Source: a virus
Direction: 5' to 3' (one strand)
Virus record (IMG/VR): IMGVR_UViG_3300008050_000365
Location: 1-22,212 of that record
Length of the DNA stretch: 22,212 nt
This document shows, in pieces, positions 3,758 to 22,212 of the stretch. A program made the position numbers and the translations under genes. Each line of letters begins with the position of its first letter. Position 1 is the stretch's first letter. The notes below the pieces were generated by a model, which worked only from the letters and a program-made list of their open reading frames with translations, did no database searches and had not been told where the DNA came from.

Positions 3758-4036
3758 TCAACCTTTCAATAATACAGGGTTGCCGTTTTCATCATATGCC
3801 CACCATACATTATATCCGTCGGCATTCTCGCGTGCCCAAGCCCTTGGGTCTAAGATTGCTGGATTTTCGGGCGCCACGTGGTCCGGGCCTCCCGGATCTC
3901 CAGGAAACCATTGGGGAACGAACCTTCCTGAATACGCGGGTCCCGGGTCCATAGGGCCCTGTTCATTCAGACCCTCCCGTCTACCGGCTTCGTATGCTTC
4001 TCTTAATAGTTTATCGTTTTTAATTTCATATGACAT
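3758..4036 (-). CDS. Small orphan with AYEAGRR leader; putative internal head protein
   Basis: I do not recognise a named family for this 92-residue protein. Residues 7-25 (NDKLLREAYEAGRREGLNE) are nearly identical to the leader of the gene at 14288-14593 and similar to one in the gene at 5225-5932. The leader looks helical and ends in L23-N24-E25 before Q26, the (L/I)xE pattern cleaved by T4-type prohead proteases. The rest is Gly/Pro-rich (GPMDPGPAYSG, FPGDPGGPD) and ends in an aromatic YNVWWAYDENGNPV stretch, similar in style to the end of the 14288 gene. Its DNA is markedly more GC-rich than its neighbours. The start has AAGGA upstream. I infer a capsid-targeted protein; a tail accessory role is also possible. 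Confidence 0.7.
   Translation of the reverse strand: MSYEIKNDKLLREAYEAGRREGLNEQGPMDPGPAYSGRFVPQWFPGDPGGPDHVAPENPAILDPRAWARENADGYNVWWAYDENGNPVLLKG
3977..4025 (-). repeat. Leader repeat, copy A
   Basis: This 49-base stretch matches 14528-14576 at 42 of 49 positions by my count, including 25 of the first 26. It encodes the NDKLLREAYEAGRR leader of the orphan at 3758-4036. Both copies lie at the 5' ends of otherwise largely dissimilar genes. Confidence 0.8.
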
Positions 4037-5224: not shown

Positions 5225-5932
5225 TTATACTCCGCCGCCGCCGCCGCCGCGTGGCGTCCCCATACCAGGGGGCGTTGGTTGATTCGAGTGTGCGCATCTC
5301 GGGCCACGACATGAATCCTTAAAGTATAGCCTCCACGGGCCCGGATCTAACCATTGCCACCAGGTGCCCTCACCGTCTTGCCGCGTCTCTCCATGTTCCC
5401 CGCGACCCCAGTCCTCGGGCCCGCCTGATCTTGGTGGTGCGGGCCACCCGCCTGGGCCAGGATTCGACGCGCTGGCCATGCGTCCTGGCATTGCATTCCC
5501 GATGCCCATACCAGAGCCTGGTGCCATACCAGATTGTTCATACATGCGCCGACCTTCAACAACATCTTCATCATCAGACTTCCATGAAGGCCTTGTCCAT
5601 GTCGCTCCTTTTTTCTTCATTGCGTCCCTTTTTGCTTGAATTGCTGGCGGAACAAAGTCGTCTGGCATCGCGTCCTGCATATACATACCTAATTCATCAC
5701 CCGCTGCAAGTGAGAATCGATTTGCTGGCCCTGTGGGCGGCGTCACCGGCGGGGCAGTTACAATTGGCCTGCCCCATCTATCAAATTGTTGTCCTTGACG
5801 ATTTGATGTATGTGCAGCAGGCCCACGTTCTAATAACCCTTGACGATATCCTTCTTGATATGCTTGTCTCTTTTTAAGTTCTCTCTTAGAACTCTCTGAA
5901 AGTTCATTCCAGTTATGTTTGCTGAAGGTCAT
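5225..5932 (-). CDS. GC-rich Gly/Pro-rich orphan with leader; putative internal head protein
   Basis: I do not recognise a family for this 235-residue protein. Residues 22-36 (RQAYQEGYRQGLLER) are a diverged form of the AYEAGRRxGLxE leader of two other small proteins here, ending in L33-L34-E35, a possible prohead-protease site. The middle has a charged stretch (AIQAKRDAMKKKGATWTRP). The C-terminal half is rich in Gly, Pro, Met and Trp (GTWWQWLDPGPWRLYF) and ends in six glycines. GC content is clearly above the neighbours, especially 5350-5520. AAGGAGA precedes the start. The gene has its own late promoter and terminator and sits next to gp23, which suggests strong late expression. Long overlapping frames on the opposite strand are shadows of its composition. 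Confidence 0.75.
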   Translation of the reverse strand: MTFSKHNWNELSESSKRELKKRQAYQEGYRQGLLERGPAAHTSNRQGQQFDRWGRPIVTAPPVTPPTGPANRFSLAAGDELGMYMQDAMPDDFVPPAIQAKRDAMKKKGATWTRPSWKSDDEDVVEGRRMYEQSGMAPGSGMGIGNAMPGRMASASNPGPGGWPAPPRSGGPEDWGRGEHGETRQDGEGTWWQWLDPGPWRLYFKDSCRGPRCAHSNQPTPPGMGTPRGGGGGGV

Positions 5933-8782: not shown

Positions 8783-9427
8783 TTATAATTTGGACAAGAA
8801 ATCAGCGAAGCACCATTCTGTTACTTCATCAATCATTCCTTGCGGCGCAGTTTTAATGATTTTCTTGTATTTATCTACATTGGATTCTTTAATTATACCA
8901 TTATCCCATACCCATTCTTTGCCTTCCATGATACCATCTACAAATGCATTTGGTGCTGATGGGTCGGCCACGATGTCTACGGCTGCAAGCATAAAGTCGT
9001 CTGAAACAAACTTCGAACCATTCTTCTCTTCAAGACTTCCCATACCACGGGATGAAACGCCAAGTTGTGCGCCTTCGTCAAGAAGATTCTTTACAATCTT
9101 ACCCATTGGAGTATCCATGATTTTGGCTTTACCAATAACATCATCATTGTTCTCATATAAATCTGTGATGATGTGGGATACTCTTTCGAGGTTGACTGTT
9201 GGTCCTTCTGGATGTCCAAGTTCACCAAATGCTCTTTTACCAGAAACGAAGTTGTTATTATAGTTTTTAACTTCATCCATGAGAATTTTCTTTGGATATA
9301 CTCTGCCGTTTCTGTTCTTTTGCTCTGCTTGCATAAACACACCACTAATGTAGTAGTTGGCAGGACCACCTTCTACATCTTCTTTGATGAGTTTAATGTC
9401 TTCAGTTGTTTCTGTAATGAGTTTCAT
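8783..9427 (-). CDS. 21: Prohead core protease gp21
   Basis: This is the serine protease of the T4 prohead; it sits in the core, cuts after (L/I)xE and matures gp22, gp23 and internal proteins. It is 214 residues against 212 in T4. Conserved blocks are ISGVFMQAEQKNRNGRVYP, GELGHPEGPTVNLERVSHI (candidate catalytic histidines H72/H85) and QLGVSSRGMG (S125/S126 as nucleophile region), with VDIVADPSAPNAF after them. The N-terminus MKLITET contains ITE before T and resembles the MELITE leader of T4 Alt, suggesting self-processing. It starts in a TAATG overlap with the upstream small gene. Confidence 0.95.
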   Translation of the reverse strand: MKLITETTEDIKLIKEDVEGGPANYYISGVFMQAEQKNRNGRVYPKKILMDEVKNYNNNFVSGKRAFGELGHPEGPTVNLERVSHIITDLYENNDDVIGKAKIMDTPMGKIVKNLLDEGAQLGVSSRGMGSLEEKNGSKFVSDDFMLAAVDIVADPSAPNAFVDGIMEGKEWVWDNGIIKESNVDKYKKIIKTAPQGMIDEVTEWCFADFLSKL

Positions 9428-9786
9428 TATGGTGCGCCTCCTCCGCCGAATCCTCCGTCACCGGGATACAGTGTCGGTCTACCTTGTTTGATTGGTTGCT
9501 GGTTGCTGGTTGATTGGGAATTTCCTGGCTCTCCTGGCGGTGGAACTTGCTGTGCCCATTGTCCATCAACGAACACATAATAATTCCATGTCCAGTATCC
9601 ATCGGGATATGCACCGTCATAGTAAACATTAGCATAATAGTTAGCATCCCACACTTCCTGTCCACCGGGATACCCGGCCGGCATCGAAGGCGGTGGTGGT
9701 ATAGGAGGTAACTCCTCGTTTAATCTCATTGGATTAGCACAACTCTCTATAAGATTTCTATATGATTTTGTGTTTAATCGTTTCAT
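9427..9786 (-). CDS. Small Tyr/Pro/Gly-rich protein; putative prohead core or internal protein
   Basis: This is a 119-residue protein of no family I recognise. The N-terminus (SYRNLIESC, then RLNEE) holds two (L/I)xE sites, at residues 12-14 and 22-24, matching the position of capsid-targeting leaders in T4 internal proteins. The remainder is poly-Pro (PPIPPPPSMPAGYPGG), then a Tyr/Trp-rich repeat-like stretch (YYANVYYDGAYPDGYWTW) and a Gly-rich end. It overlaps both neighbours by TAATG junctions, in the place where T4 has the small prohead core proteins gp67/gp68. A core or packaged protein is an inference from location and leader. Confidence 0.75.
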   Translation of the reverse strand: MKRLNTKSYRNLIESCANPMRLNEELPPIPPPPSMPAGYPGGQEVWDANYYANVYYDGAYPDGYWTWNYYVFVDGQWAQQVPPPGEPGNSQSTSNQQPIKQGRPTLYPGDGGFGGGGAP

Positions 9787-10133
9787 TATTGTCCGCCTGC
9801 TCCCATTGGTGCAGCCCCTGCTCCTGGCATACCACCTGGACCACCTTCTGGTTTTGGTTTATTTTCTGATTGTAATAATTCTTTTGCAAAGTATACCATT
9901 TCAGGATAAAACTTTTTGTAAAGTTCATCTAAAATTCTTGAGTCAGCAGAACCTTCTTGTTGCATCTGTTGAATAAACACATCCACTTTTGGATAACCTT
10001 TAATCTTATCGAAGAATTTATCATCAATGCTAGGCGCAGGACCCCCGCCTGGTCCACCCATGCCTGGCATACCGGGCATACCGGGTGGCGGCCCTTGCTC
10101 AATTATCAAGTTGTGCTTTTCGAATAGGTTCAT
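9786..10133 (-). CDS. Small collagen-like Gly/Pro protein; putative prohead core protein
   Basis: This 115-residue protein has an N-terminal leader EKHNLIIEQG with I10-I11-E12 before Q13, a possible gp21 site. A short collagen-like Gly-Pro-Met tract (GPPPGMPGMPGMGGPGGG, residues 14-31) follows, then a charged helical centre (about 36-92, SIDDKFFDKIKGYPKVDVF and onward), and a second Gly/Ala/Pro/Met tail. It starts in an ATGA overlap with the upstream gene and ends in a TAATG overlap with the next. No known domain is evident. Position and leader suggest a prohead core or internal head role, analogous to gp67/gp68 of T4 but not demonstrably homologous. Confidence 0.75.
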   Translation of the reverse strand: MNLFEKHNLIIEQGPPPGMPGMPGMGGPGGGPAPSIDDKFFDKIKGYPKVDVFIQQMQQEGSADSRILDELYKKFYPEMVYFAKELLQSENKPKPEGGPGGMPGAGAAPMGAGGQ

Positions 10134-14287: not shown

Positions 14288-14593
14288 TCATCCAAGGGGA
14301 ACATATTGCCAGTAGCAACTATTGGGGCAAGTCCATATCCAATATCCAATTACATTTCCATCTGCATCATATACAGCAATATTATGCCCATCATGCGTGC
14401 CGTGGAAGTCGGGTTGCTTAAAAGGGGTTACATACGGATAATCGCCTGGCTCATTGAGCCACCCTTTCGGATTATATTCCATACCGCCCGGGCCCTGTGG
14501 TGCTTGCTTTTGCTCCCGCAGGCCTTGCCGTCTACCTGCTTCGTATGCTTCTCGAAGAAGTTTGTCGTTTCTAATTGGTGAGTTGTGATTCAT
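14288..14593 (-). CDS. Small orphan with AYEAGRR leader; putative internal head protein
   Basis: This is a 101-residue protein with the start set at ATG 14593, which has AAGGA 8 bases upstream; a longer frame to 14647 would run into the end of gp18. Residues 9-27 (NDKLLREAYEAGRRQGLRE) are nearly identical to the leader of the gene at 3758-4036. L25-R26-E27 before Q28 fits a prohead-protease site. The body is Gly/Pro-rich (APQGPGGMEY, GWLNEPGDYP) and ends in NIAVYDADGNVIGYWIW with two Cys and several Trp/Tyr, comparable to the end of the 3758 gene. It is an unusual insert between sheath and tube genes. I infer a packaged protein. Confidence 0.75.
   Translation of the reverse strand: MNHNSPIRNDKLLREAYEAGRRQGLREQKQAPQGPGGMEYNPKGWLNEPGDYPYVTPFKQPDFHGTHDGHNIAVYDADGNVIGYWIWTCPNSCYWQYVPLG
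14528..14576 (-). repeat. Leader repeat, copy B
   Basis: This matches 3977-4025 at 42 of 49 positions by my count and encodes the NDKLLREAYEAGRR leader of the orphan at 14288-14593. Confidence 0.8.
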
Positions 14594-14613
14594 TTTTTTA
14601 TTCCTTATTACTA

Positions 14614-14621
14614 TATCTATA
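14614..14621 (-). promoter_or_regulatory. Weak late-promoter candidate (TATAGATA)
   Basis: The minus strand reads TATAGATA, seven of eight bases of the late consensus, between the gp18 stop and the orphan at 14593. The start would be near 14608, with the AAGGA site still in the leader. Confidence 0.3.
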
Positions 14622-14633
14622 AGACTTTTTGTA

Positions 14634-16622
14634 TCATCCACCAGCAATTTCGCTGAAATCTACACCAGAACGGGCAGCAACGAAGTTGAGTTGAATGAAG
14701 TTAATTGAACGAGTTGGTTTCACGAAGATGTCTGCAACAAACTTGTTGTTGTCAATGACTGTTGAAGTGTTGTTGGTTTCGTCACAAACAACCTTAAAGT
14801 CAGTGATACCTCTTCGTCCCTGAATATCTCGCAAGAACGGTTCAATCATATTCTTGAACTGGGCTCTTGTGAATGCATCATTCTGCTCGAAGAGTTGGAA
14901 CTTCGATGCAGTGGAGATTGCTTTCTCCATCACGATGAAGAGTCTTCTGACATTGATTCTATCGAATGCACTTCCCTTAGATTGTAGTGTCTTGTCACCG
15001 AAGAGGACTGTACCTTCTCCGGGGAATGCAACTACAGGATTTACACTGTCAATATAGAGGTCATCTCTGTATGATTCAGGTGTGGGGTTCATCGCTAGTT
15101 TTACAACTCCACGAATCTGGCCACGGTTGAAACCTGCGGGAGAGAACCACGGGTCGTTAACATTATCTGTTCTTGCACAGAGTCCTGCCATATCACCGTT
15201 CAATGGAATCCATCGCAATTGGTCATTGTGACGGTCGTATTGATACTTCCAACCACTGTCAAGGAATGCATAGGAACTGTTCTTATTGAGTTGAGTGTTC
15301 CTGTAGTCTTTGACATTTTCTACCTGAGTAGAAAGTGCAGTTACATTTACAACATCTCCATATGCTGGTGAAACGAATGCTACGCAGTCTTTTCTTGCAT
15401 CTGCAATATCAATAACGCTTCCTGCAAGTGATGCACTTGCGGCACCTGTAAGAATAAGTGAAACATCAACTGTGTTTGTGTCAGCAAACAAGTTGTATGA
15501 TGTTAGCATTTGTGTGTCGGATGATGTTGCACCATATGCTCCAGAAACACCAGAGTAGTATTTTCTTGCAACATTTCCGAAGATGGTTCCTGTGCCACCC
15601 GCACCTGCGATGGTCGAGTTTGCTCCAGAACCACCACCAGCGGCAAGAGTAGGTAGTGAATTACCCACATTAATGTACTTGGAGTTTTTATTGATAACAT
15701 CAGCATAGAAGTTTGAGTTTCCGTCGCCATCTCTTGCATCTTGGGCAAGTGAGACTCCGTTGTAGACTTCCATAACTTCACCAGTGACTCCGGTGAAGTC
15801 TCCGTCTTCGTCGATAACGAGAATTGAGAATTGGTCGCCAGTACCACCAGAGAGTTTCTCTAGGTTGGTTGAGGTGTATGGTCGGGAAACATATGATTTA
15901 TATGCGAATTCCCATGTTGCTGTTGTTCCTATTGTGACTGCATCAGTAATCGCAGGCGAAATACCAATTGTGGTCCCAGGCGAACCGTGAGTTACGCCTG
16001 TTACAGTGAATGTTGTACTTAGGTTTCCGATTTTAATCTTATCACCGGCAATCGCGGCAGTTTGGCCACCAGTACCACCAGTTCTAGCAACAATTGTGGA
16101 TAGTCCTGATACCTGGCCGGAGAGTCCCATCTCTTGACTTGTTCCCTTAGTAGCGTGTGTTCCCCATCCAGAAGTTAGTCCTGCAAGACCCTCTACAACG
16201 GCAACTCTAAGACTGTTACCAAATGAACCGGGATACTTTGCGAAGAATTTGGTATCTCCTGCATCACTATAAATTGCACCACCGGCAGAATAACCTGCAT
16301 CATAGACATCGGGGTTTTTGATAATTGCGCCTGAACCACCAAATCCTGCATTCATTGAGTCAGTAGTGGTTGCTCTTGCTACTGTACAAGAACCCCCATA
16401 ACTAAGAAAGTTTGCAGTATTTAACCAGTTCTCATAATTGTCTGTTGTTGGTTTCCCATATAATGAAGTGAGTTGGGTTTCATTAGGCACAAGTACTCGA
16501 TACTCTTCTGGGCCCCAATCAGCACGAATAACAGCGGCTGCTCTTGTAGTAGAGACAGTGGGGATTATGCTTGTGAAATCCTTCTCTGTGACGGTAACGC
16601 CTGGACTTACTTTAAATGCCAT
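14634..16622 (-). CDS. 18: Contractile tail sheath protein gp18
   Basis: This sheath subunit contracts to drive the tube through the host envelope. It is 662 residues against 659 in T4. The N-terminus (MAFKVSPGVTVTEKDFTSII, RAAAVIRADWGPEEYRVLVP) and the C-terminal domain (NPVVAFPGEGTVLFGDKTL, FDRINVRRLFIVMEKAIS, FVKPTRSINFIQLNFVAARS) are diagnostic of the family. A Gly/Thr-rich segment around residues 160-245 probably forms a surface domain, the variable part of sheath proteins. AAGGAG lies 8 bases upstream of the start. The 74-base gap before it holds a weak CTAAC hairpin but no clear promoter. Confidence 0.96.
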   Translation of the reverse strand: MAFKVSPGVTVTEKDFTSIIPTVSTTRAAAVIRADWGPEEYRVLVPNETQLTSLYGKPTTDNYENWLNTANFLSYGGSCTVARATTTDSMNAGFGGSGAIIKNPDVYDAGYSAGGAIYSDAGDTKFFAKYPGSFGNSLRVAVVEGLAGLTSGWGTHATKGTSQEMGLSGQVSGLSTIVARTGGTGGQTAAIAGDKIKIGNLSTTFTVTGVTHGSPGTTIGISPAITDAVTIGTTATWEFAYKSYVSRPYTSTNLEKLSGGTGDQFSILVIDEDGDFTGVTGEVMEVYNGVSLAQDARDGDGNSNFYADVINKNSKYINVGNSLPTLAAGGGSGANSTIAGAGGTGTIFGNVARKYYSGVSGAYGATSSDTQMLTSYNLFADTNTVDVSLILTGAASASLAGSVIDIADARKDCVAFVSPAYGDVVNVTALSTQVENVKDYRNTQLNKNSSYAFLDSGWKYQYDRHNDQLRWIPLNGDMAGLCARTDNVNDPWFSPAGFNRGQIRGVVKLAMNPTPESYRDDLYIDSVNPVVAFPGEGTVLFGDKTLQSKGSAFDRINVRRLFIVMEKAISTASKFQLFEQNDAFTRAQFKNMIEPFLRDIQGRRGITDFKVVCDETNNTSTVIDNNKFVADIFVKPTRSINFIQLNFVAARSGVDFSEIAGG

Positions 16623-16696
16623 GTAAATTCTCCTTGGATCTTTCTAACTATGTTAGTCGTATATTCTTAAATTATGTATATGATTAAAGTATTTCA

Positions 16697-18812
<2,116 letters not shown>

Positions 18813-18840
18813 AATAAAAATTCTCCATATACCTTATGTA

Positions 18841-19161
18841 TTACGCATAAGTGTTACCGTCATAGTCCATAGATGGACCTTGTACCCATGTTGTGCTATA
18901 TGATGTGTAGTCGTCTATACCAGAAGTCGAACCAGATGGCCCTGTAACATATGTTTGTATAGTAGAAAGTGCGGCGGTAGCACCACTTGGCCCCGATGCT
19001 GTGAAGTCTTCTGAGTCCCAGAAAGTAACATCTGTTGTGCGAATAATCTTGGAGGTCTTTACTGGACCATACACATATGATTTTGCAATGAAGTTGAAAT
19101 CGGAAATGATACTTCTTCTAGTATCAAAGTCTCCTTCATAATCTTCATTAAGAGTAGATGA
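18841..19161 (-). pseudogene. 15: C-terminal part of gp15, separated by an in-frame stop
   Basis: Directly after the TAA at 19164-19162 the same reading frame continues for 106 codons (SSTLNEDYEGDFDTRRSII, then SYVYGPVKTSKIIRTTDV) to TAA at 18843-18841. DYEGDFDTRR and the YGPVKTSKII stretch are typical of the second half of gp15 in marine T4-like phages as I recall them. Together with the upstream part it gives 273 codon positions, the size of T4 gp15 (272 residues). There is no ATG with a ribosome site near the junction; a GTG at 19074 would lose the conserved part. The tail carries GPSG motifs. It would be made only by readthrough, or if the TAA is an error. Confidence 0.8.
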
Positions 19162-19662
19162 TTACAATATGACTGGAACATCTACCTTTGTGTGTAGGGT
19201 AGTCATGTTTAGAGACACATTGAATTCTGGAGTAAAGTAGGGCAATATCTGTTCTGTGATTTGCAATGCATCATCCATGTGTCGTACCATTGCAGATAAC
19301 TGGAAGGAGAAGTTATAGGGAACCTCTGCATAGTCATATGACACTGGACTGCCGGCAGTAACACCAGTGCTGGTATGATACTTATTCATAGTGTTTCTTT
19401 TTCGCTGAGAGTCATAATCAATGCCAGTTATTTCAAAAGCCAAACGAGGAAGTGTAATTTCTGTTTTTGGTCCATCACTAATTGAACTTCGTTCATAGAT
19501 TCTTCTTAGAAACTTTTCTTTAGGGCCATAAGATATGGGCACTCTAATTTTTTCTTTTGTTGTTCCATCTGCATTTTTTCTGGTAATGTAGATGTCGTTA
19601 AACAAAGAACCAAATGCAACAACTAGATTTCTAACAGAGTTGTGGTAAAATGTATTAAACAT
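19162..19662 (-). CDS. 15: Tail sheath terminator / tail completion protein gp15, truncated
   Basis: gp15 in T4 (272 residues) forms the hexamer that closes the tail and binds the neck. This frame has only 166 residues: MFNTFYHNSVRNLVVAFGSL, IRVPISYGPKEKFLRRI, PRLAFEITGIDYDSQRKRN and a C-terminal MTTLHTKVDVPVIL, all typical of the first 60% of the family. The frame then meets TAA, but it is followed in register by the missing part. GGAGGG lies upstream of the start, which overlaps the gp14 stop by TAATG. A single change of TAA to CAA would restore a full-length protein. As written it should be non-functional unless read through. Confidence 0.85.
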   Translation of the reverse strand: MFNTFYHNSVRNLVVAFGSLFNDIYITRKNADGTTKEKIRVPISYGPKEKFLRRIYERSSISDGPKTEITLPRLAFEITGIDYDSQRKRNTMNKYHTSTGVTAGSPVSYDYAEVPYNFSFQLSAMVRHMDDALQITEQILPYFTPEFNVSLNMTTLHTKVDVPVIL

Positions 19663-20600
19663 TAGATATTACCCTCCGAGAATGGGTCGGTGTCCGTGAA
19701 GTCGAAGATGGAATCACCCTGTAGTTCAAAGTCATCTGCATCATCAAATGCGTCTGCGATGAGAATTGTAGTTGTTGCTGGTGATGCAGTCTTACCTGCC
19801 TTATAGAATACACCAGAAGTTGCTCCAGTAACACCTGCGGTATTACCAACACCAACAACGAATCCGCTTGCACCAGAAGGTCCTGCAACTGTGAGGAGTT
19901 GATATCCTGCACCAGAAGGTCCAGCAGTTCCTCCGGTGGCCCACGAAACAACAGTACCATACCAGTCTGCACTAGAACCAAGAGTTCCATAACCAGAAGC
20001 ACCTTGATATACAACTTCACCAATACTGTAATCGTTGGTTGCTCCACCAGTGACATAGATGTTGAATGCAACATTTTCTTCGGTGTTTGTTATTGTATCA
20101 ATATCAGTAAATCCAGTTTCGAAATCTTCTTGACTATACTCGAAGAGTTCACAGGAAAGTTTATATGTGTATAGTTTACCCAATTGATAAAATGGATTTT
20201 CGTGTTCTACGAATTTAATTTCAAACAAACCTTTTGATAGGGGAAGATAAATTAAATCTCCCTCTCTTGGTCTGTTGATATCATTTTCGTGCGACAGATT
20301 CTTTTCAAATATCTTTTTAGAAACTATAAATTCTACAGTATCTTTAATTTGGATTCCGAATTTAGAAGCAAAATCTCCTTCACCCTCAAATCCATCGACG
20401 CTGGAAATATATACTTCAATATTAATTCCTTGTTCGAATTTTGAAATGGTATCTTCACCAAACAAGAAATCTTTATTTACCAATGTTCTTGGAATATAAA
20501 TGACATCATGACCGTACATTCGAATTGCTTCGATTGTAATGTCTTCAACCAGATTCTGTTCTGATTTAACTTGATGTCTAAAAAACTTGTTGGTTGCCAT
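19662..20600 (-). CDS. 14: Neck protein gp14
   Basis: This head-completion (neck) protein binds below gp13 and joins head to tail. It is 312 residues against 256 in T4. The N-terminal 175 residues (MATNKFFRHQVKSEQNLVED, IRMYGHDVIYIPRTLVN, LSKGLFEIKFVEHENPFYQL, YTYKLSCELFEYSQEDFETG) are canonical. Residues of about 178-285 form an inserted Gly/Ser/Thr-rich block with GPSGAG and GPSGASG motifs, before a canonical acidic end (FDFTDTDPFSEGN). At DNA level the two GPSG motifs share an exact 14-base repeat (19870-19883 and 19909-19922). It starts 3 bases after the gp13 stop. Confidence 0.92.
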   Translation of the reverse strand: MATNKFFRHQVKSEQNLVEDITIEAIRMYGHDVIYIPRTLVNKDFLFGEDTISKFEQGINIEVYISSVDGFEGEGDFASKFGIQIKDTVEFIVSKKIFEKNLSHENDINRPREGDLIYLPLSKGLFEIKFVEHENPFYQLGKLYTYKLSCELFEYSQEDFETGFTDIDTITNTEENVAFNIYVTGGATNDYSIGEVVYQGASGYGTLGSSADWYGTVVSWATGGTAGPSGAGYQLLTVAGPSGASGFVVGVGNTAGVTGATSGVFYKAGKTASPATTTILIADAFDDADDFELQGDSIFDFTDTDPFSEGNI

Positions 20601-20603
20601 TTA

Positions 20604-21347
20604 TTACCCTACCATAAAGTCTGGTGGAAGTTCATACATTAGTTGTACATTCTCTTCAATCTTGTCAATTTCTGTTTGAGCCCTTTCTACAATTTCTCTT
20701 CCATTAAAAGACACTCCACCAGGAAGTTGAATTCCGTCAAACTTAGATAAATTTGAACCCCATTGTCTTCTGAATATTTCAGTAACATATCTTTTAAGAA
20801 GCCTGTCGTTGTAAATTTCAGGATATGTATCTGGGTCTAGCACAATATATGCCTCAGCAACAATATAATCATCGACATTTACGTCTTCACTCCAGTCCAT
20901 ATCAATTTTAAGTTGATTTGTGACTCTACTAAATCTAATAGATTTTTCGGGAGAGAGAATATCTTGAATCAATGAAAGGTGACTCTTAGTAATGCTATAT
21001 TGCATCATGCCCTGATTCGGATTTCTAATTCCATAGAAATCATTCAATGCCATTTGATATCGAACATCAAAGAGATTTGTTGTCCCCTCGCTAAACTGGA
21101 ATAATTTTATAACAGAAATCACACTATTTCCTAGTGTAATGTATTCGTTATCAATATCGTCTTGGGTGATTTGATGTTTAAGATAAGTTTTTTCTACACC
21201 ATCAAAGTGATACTCTGCAAAGAATTGCAAGGCGTCATCTATTCTGTCTTCCAGTTGAGCATCATCTACATTAATTTCAATAACTGGAGCGCCGAGTCTT
21301 CTCAGAGCGTATTCTTTTAGTGTGCTTCTTGATGTTGGTTGTGCCAT
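20604..21347 (-). CDS. 13: Neck protein gp13
   Basis: This head-completion protein binds the portal after packaging. It is 247 residues; T4 gp13 is longer (309), but marine relatives are usually about this size. Typical segments are the N-terminal STLKEYALRRLGAPVIEINV, DDALQFFAEYHFDGVEKTYL, the DFYGIRNPNQGMMQYSITKS stretch and the C-terminal LPGGVSFNGREIVERAQTEI. AGGAG lies 8 bases upstream of the start at 21347. It is followed almost without a gap by gp14, so gp13-gp14-gp15 form one translational group. Confidence 0.93.
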   Translation of the reverse strand: MAQPTSRSTLKEYALRRLGAPVIEINVDDAQLEDRIDDALQFFAEYHFDGVEKTYLKHQITQDDIDNEYITLGNSVISVIKLFQFSEGTTNLFDVRYQMALNDFYGIRNPNQGMMQYSITKSHLSLIQDILSPEKSIRFSRVTNQLKIDMDWSEDVNVDDYIVAEAYIVLDPDTYPEIYNDRLLKRYVTEIFRRQWGSNLSKFDGIQLPGGVSFNGREIVERAQTEIDKIEENVQLMYELPPDFMVG

Positions 21348-21398
21348 GTTTAATGCTCCTGCTATATCTCCAATATATGTATGCCAACAGAGAACTAA

Positions 21399-21677
21399 TC
21401 AAACACTGGTATCATCAGTTTCTTTGTCCATCTCAATTTGTTTTTCTAATATTTTCAGTTCTGGTAGGGATTTTATATATCTGTCCCCGTTTATCCAAGG
21501 AAATTCATCTCCCACTTGATTCACACCATTGCTTAAATAATGTTTTCTGTTTTGAAAATATATTCTATACCAACCTTCTGGTTTTTTATATTCGGGGTCA
21601 AAGGTTTTTATAATACCCTCTTCAAACTGATGTCCGTTTATATCGACAATATCATCTTTATGAATAAAATGACTCAT
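21399..21677 (-). CDS. Small hypothetical protein
   Basis: This 92-residue protein starts at ATG 21677, which overlaps the preceding stop by ATGA; a longer frame to 21743 would overlap the upstream gene by 70 bases and is less likely. It has a strand-rich, SH3-like looking first half (HKDDIVDINGHQFEEGIIKTF, GWYRIYFQNRKHYLSNG) and a charged helical end (LPELKILEKQIEMDKETDD). I do not recognise a family. It probably belongs to the same transcription unit as the gene before it and gp13. Confidence 0.7.
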   Translation of the reverse strand: MSHFIHKDDIVDINGHQFEEGIIKTFDPEYKKPEGWYRIYFQNRKHYLSNGVNQVGDEFPWINGDRYIKSLPELKILEKQIEMDKETDDTSV

Positions 21678-22212
21678 ATTTGCCAGTTTGGACGGAATGA
21701 CATGCCACCAGATGCTGCATAAAAGAATGGTTGATATGTCCAACCTCGGCCGGGCGCAGCCATTGTTGGCATTTCACCATCCACCCCCGACTGTGCGGTG
21801 ACATTGCTTGCACGTTGATTGTTGAACGCCACACTTTCTGTTTTCCAATCATCAAAGTCATAATACATCCAAGAAGTATCATCGTCATTCCAGGTAGGCT
21901 TGTTATCACAGTCGCAATAACCCAAGTCGTTGCAACTACCGTCTGAACATAAACAACAAGGAACGGTATATTTTGCGCCCCATGAGTCATCAAATTGATA
22001 ATTAATACATCTGTATCCATTATGATCTTTAAACTTGTCGTAGTTGTTTCCAGTAAATTCTTCTGGGTTTAAAAGAACAAGTTTATTTGTGTTCTCTTCT
22101 TTTCGGAATACTGTTATTCCTTCTCTATTATATGCGGTGTTTTGGCTAAAACCCTCTGCGAGCAACCACCTTGTTTCGTTTCTTGGAGTGAATGTTAACA
22201 CTGTATTTTTAT
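21674..22212 (-). CDS. Cys-rich orphan, 5' end outside window
   Basis: The frame is open to the right edge of the window, so the true start is not visible; a GTG at 22201 has no convincing ribosome binding site. About 178 residues are visible. RWLLAEGFSQN contains LAE before G, an LxE pattern. A cluster of six Cys in 17 residues (PCCLCSDGSC, then YCDC; 21908-21958) suggests metal binding or disulfides. It is followed by an Asp/Trp/Tyr-rich stretch (WNDDDTSWMYYDFDDWK) and a Gly-rich end. The style resembles the Trp/Tyr-rich tails of the orphans at 3758 and 14288. No function can be assigned. Confidence 0.7.
   Translation of the reverse strand, partial: KNTVLTFTPRNETRWLLAEGFSQNTAYNREGITVFRKEENTNKLVLLNPEEFTGNNYDKFKDHNGYRCINYQFDDSWGAKYTVPCCLCSDGSCNDLGYCDCDNKPTWNDDDTSWMYYDFDDWKTESVAFNNQRASNVTAQSGVDGEMPTMAAPGRGWTYQPFFYAASGGMSFRPNWQI

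Follow-up and report, generated by a model that had tools for sequence, protein, structure and literature searches.

The tail gene gp15 is essential in T4, and a frame that resembles it is cut by a TAA codon in the window, by which we mean the whole stretch of 22,212 nucleotides analysed here (IMG/VR virus record IMGVR_UViG_3300008050_000365). Does this stop belong to the phage lineage, is it tolerated by some form of decoding or gene splitting, or is it a private change of a single base?

A gp15 frame interrupted at codon 167

Translation of window positions 18841-19662 on the minus strand gave 273 codons and a closing TAA; codon 167, at 19164-19162, is also TAA and the only stop inside the frame, which confirms the single in-frame interruption described in the initial annotation. 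The gp15 frame and the genes around it are laid out as follows.

18342..18812, minus strand: next gene downstream of gp15, intact, 156 aa both in the window and in the sibling contig described below
18841..19161, minus strand: gp15 C-terminal 106 codons in the same register, with the terminal TAA; matches PHROG 227 and PF16724, and the T4 gp15 alignment runs through the stop
19162..19164, minus strand: premature in-frame TAA, codon 167; 19164 is the sole mismatch to the sibling contig in 6083 bases
19162..19662, minus strand: gp15 N-terminal 166 codons and the premature TAA; defined by translation, matches PHROG 227 and Pfam PF16724
19662..20600, minus strand: gp14-like neck protein (head closure Hc2), intact; PHROG 460 E 8.9e-80, Pfam PF11649 E 4.5e-39
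20604..21347, minus strand: gp13-like neck protein (head-tail adaptor Ad2), intact; PHROG 211 E 9.4e-40

Profile searches bore out the earlier impression that both halves look like gp15. The N-terminal part (166 aa) matched the PHROG 227 'tail sheath stabilizer' family (E 8.7e-54) and the Pfam family T4-gp15_tss (PF16724; E 2e-50, 171.7 bits with a cut-off of 25), and the C-terminal part (106 codons) matched the same two families (E 3.7e-11 for PHROG 227; E 1.3e-10 and 41.3 bits, cut-off 25, for PF16724) at the profile positions next after those covered by the N-terminal part. Judged by these alignments, chance does not explain two related halves in one register. As in T4-like phages, the gp15 frame adjoins the neck genes, the gp14-like and gp13-like genes lying directly upstream; from T4 gene order, we take the downstream gene at 18342..18812 to be the small terminase (gp16). 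The ends of gp15 (18841-19010, minus strand) and gp14 (19662-19960, minus strand) both form Gly/Ser-rich tails with GPSG, GASG and GATG motifs.

With an X placed at the stop, the joined 273-codon frame matched T4 gp15 (PDB 3j2m, 272 residues; E 7.7e-29) and also 4huh, and the alignment to 3j2m was unbroken across the stop, codon 167 facing T4 Met168 by manual count. Residues 1-217 of T4 gp15 (PF16724, PHROG 227; PDB 3j2m, 4hud, 4huh) were aligned by residues 1-215 of the window frame, which differs from the T4 protein in its TAA at codon 167 and in the Gly/Ser-rich tail after about residue 215, unaligned to T4. Among the matches listed, the nearest annotated isolates were Pelagibacter phage HTVC008M and the cyanophages Syn10, S-WAM1 and S-CAM9 (36-47% identity), and most of these gp15 matches were annotated as tail sheath stabiliser. 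A hexameric ring completing the tail is established for T4 gp15; the hexamer binds gp3 and the last sheath ring, which makes the tail competent for head joining (PMC3004832). A predicted structure model of the window gp15, built with 11 sequences, had a mean pLDDT of 42.4 and was too poor for placing codon 167 in the fold.

The stop codon among relatives and in a near-identical contig

We scanned IMG/VR with the N-terminal part of gp15, which gave 104 relatives, and kept the best 80. In these 80 (62 distinct DNA sequences) codon 167 was always a sense codon, encoding Q in 28, N in 23, D in 9, T in 7, G in 6, E in 4 and S in 3, and it was Gln in all 28 relatives with at least 69% identity. Seventy-five of the same best 80 were complete at the 3′ end, with products of 249-303 residues, and the other 5 ran off their contigs. 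Two observations that, according to the initial annotation, would tell against a recent lesion were thus absent: none of the best 80 of 104 relatives shared the stop, and none of the 75 complete ones ended near residue 166. In 11 close proteins that we aligned (products of 11 of the 80 loci), Leu166-Gln167-Ser168 was invariant, and the length differences fell mostly in the C-terminal Gly/Ser-rich tail. These comparisons show that the stop interrupts the conserved core of gp15 and does not characterise the lineage.

A contig of 7255 bases, L082 (IMGVR_UViG_3300025133_002360), proved to be a near-identical sibling over one stretch.

16130..22212 of the window: stretch common to the window and L082, 6082/6083 identical, no gaps

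Position 19164, where the TAA begins, is the one mismatch in this overlap of 6083 bases. The gp15 gene of L082 (2712-3533, minus strand of L082) is identical to the window gene except for this base and, unlike it, encodes an intact 273-residue product without an internal stop. The window thus lacks the continuous frame of about 250-300 residues that is present in L082 and in all 75 complete relatives among the best 80 of 104. This is the testimony of one contig, and L082 may share a sample, or a related sample, with the window; a pattern scan over the stop site with either base allowed, in a search set that may omit records very near the window, found no other contig. A 30-base pattern from the major capsid gene retrieved only L167, about 81% alike in that stretch, and a 29-base pattern from the sheath gene found no contig, so that private differences could be checked in 6083 of the 22,212 bases. 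On this evidence from sequence comparison, the window gp15 is best described as an ordinary gene of a marine T4-like phage with a private single-base change.

Origin of the stop

Three readings would give the TAA a function or a meaning of its own, and even taken together we regard them as highly improbable. The initial annotation had listed stop readthrough among the options, that is, a real TAA read by a suppressor tRNA or passed by leaky termination to yield both short and full-length gp15. The frame downstream of the stop is open and conserved, and a suppressor tRNA may sit in the genome beyond the 22 kb window; against this, none of the best 80 relatives and not even the 99.98%-identical L082 has the stop, scans of the window and of 9 related loci gave no tRNA gene, and 14 of the 25 other listed genes stop at TAA. 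With no positive evidence for it, and with the stop missing from relatives and sibling alike, readthrough drops to a very small probability. Less likely still is a split gp15 whose two parts are made as distinct proteins, each from a start of its own: both halves are kept in one register, but past the stop the frame offers no start before a GTG at codon 197 (19074), which lacks a purine-rich ribosome-binding site, whereas GGAGGG precedes the start of gp15 itself, and initiation at this GTG would lose the conserved residues 168-196. The complete relatives, 75 of 75 among the best 80 of 104, are single frames of 249-303 residues, and we rejected a natural split because no possible restart has a ribosome-binding site and because complete relatives are unsplit. 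Least credible of all is reassignment of TAA to an amino acid throughout the phage, for which nothing was found in favour. The same 14 of 25 other listed genes end in TAA, the conserved ones at lengths near those of their relatives, and the gp13 frame would extend by 327 codons if TAA were sense; the earlier judgement that general recoding is unlikely therefore stands. Among the papers listed on premature stops and errors in viral contigs and on stop recoding in phages, none was directly usable here.

Of the other origins that had been proposed, a recent nonsense mutation and a sequencing or assembly error are the ones the data support, since the near-identical contig differs at this base alone and all of the best 80 of 104 relatives have a sense codon; a mixed population would look like an error at the level of contigs. 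To see how segregating variation behaves in this group, we took the near-identical pairs among the 80 loci (more than 1 kb in common, at least 98% identity), of which there were 40, several with 0-4 differences. Twelve pairs were chosen; those omitted were 6 without a difference, 9 that differed at 1-16 positions and all 13 that differed at more than 17, and some loci occur in more than one chosen pair. Of the 50 differences, 2 lay outside called genes; among the 48 in coding sequence, 37 were silent, 11 missense and none nonsense. Within the coding part of the 6083-base overlap, 704 of 15,321 single substitutions (4.6%), and 101 of 1937 C:G to T:A changes, would make a stop; 4.6% is the plain rate for an unselected change, and because the finding was picked for being a stop, such rates guide the choice of origin and are not a significance test. 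With most of the 48 differences in the control pairs silent and none nonsense, segregating variants look filtered by selection and the window stop does not, and the window change looks like an unselected single hit rather than segregating variation.

We also looked for breaks in 12 conserved genes across 154 loci, 732 complete copies in all; left out were L001, L002, L083-L086 and six duplicate loci from contigs present twice. A script flagged 8 copies, of which, in our judgement from the alignment rows, one was a real break, a portal frameshift in L100, and none was an in-frame nonsense change. By the same judgement, the five gp14 flags were naturally short forms (215-217 aa), and the flags on gp16 of L159 and gp20 of L127 came from alignments that extend past the gene's own end. 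All 92 other complete gp15 copies in the 154 loci were unbroken. The L100 contig (IMGVR_UViG_3300030090_001730) carries its frameshift near residue 430 of a portal protein (gp20) that is otherwise 86% identical, and so offers a second example of a lone lesion in a conserved phage gene on a metagenomic contig.

Taken together, these observations make a one-base error in the assembled contig, whether from sequencing, library amplification or consensus calling, the probable origin of the stop, and more likely than a real defective allele. One base of the window contig would have departed from the near-identical L082 in the course of sequencing, amplification or consensus building, turning codon 167 into TAA, and the phage population would still make an ordinary full-length gp15. 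By analogy with T4, that protein would assemble into a hexameric ring on the tube cap gp3 and the last ring of the sheath, closing the tail so that it can join the head. Against an error, the rest of the 6083 shared bases are without a difference, so the window contig is not generally error-ridden, and breaks of this sort are rare in the region, with one real break and no nonsense change among the 732 copies.

The alternative, that the sampled genome or a sub-population truly acquired a nonsense mutation recently and makes a truncated gp15, is possible and clearly less probable; such a genome would be defective unless intact phages in the same cell complemented it. It would account for the same data as an error, namely the mismatch to L082 and the sense codons of the relatives. 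Transitions at C:G pairs, of which this is one, commonly arise spontaneously, and one difference per 5-6 kb is usual between near-identical contigs, several pairs differing at 1-4 positions. However, a lethal allele would not be expected to prevail in the assembled consensus, and neither the 48 coding differences of the 12 control pairs nor the 92 other complete gp15 copies include a nonsense change or a break, respectively. It is hardly plausible that the nonsense allele dominates the assembly in a marine phage population, maintained because some hosts suppress the stop or because intact siblings complement it. An allele both real and common would imply that complementation or suppression lets phages survive at sea with a broken tail gene, a notion with no support here.

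If the stop were real, a product ending at residue 166 would miss the rest of the family region (Pfam profile positions 160-215), and a phage with such a gp15 would, judging from T4, be expected to be defective. The locus serves mainly as a warning: a private difference of one base can give an essential gene on a metagenomic contig the look of a split gene, and one near-identical contig suffices to reveal this.

Small Pro/Gly-rich proteins elsewhere in the window

Apart from gp15, the window encodes small proteins with a common N-terminal segment of about 23-36 residues (for example KLLREAYEAGRRQGL) that ends in or near L/I-x-E and is followed by unrelated Pro/Gly-rich tails. One loose pattern search found 6 such proteins in 3 of 155 sequences.

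3758-4036, 5225-5932 and 14288-14647 (probable start 14593) of the window, minus strand: small proteins with the common N-terminal segment
17308+ and 16856+ of L094, and 9832+ of L096: small proteins with the same N-terminal segment

L/I-x-E is the site of the T4 prohead protease gp21, and T4 internal head proteins carry capsid-targeting propeptides (PMC9026906). The common segment looks like a possible propeptide of this type. Two further small Pro/Gly-rich proteins, at 9427-9786 and 9786-10133 on the minus strand of the window (P+G 0.29 and 0.30), have L/I-x-E within their first 24 residues. They adjoin the gene at 8783-9427, presumably the prohead protease gp21 from its place in the gene order. 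In the fetched loci, the 9427-9786 protein had no match and the 9786-10133 protein had 12.
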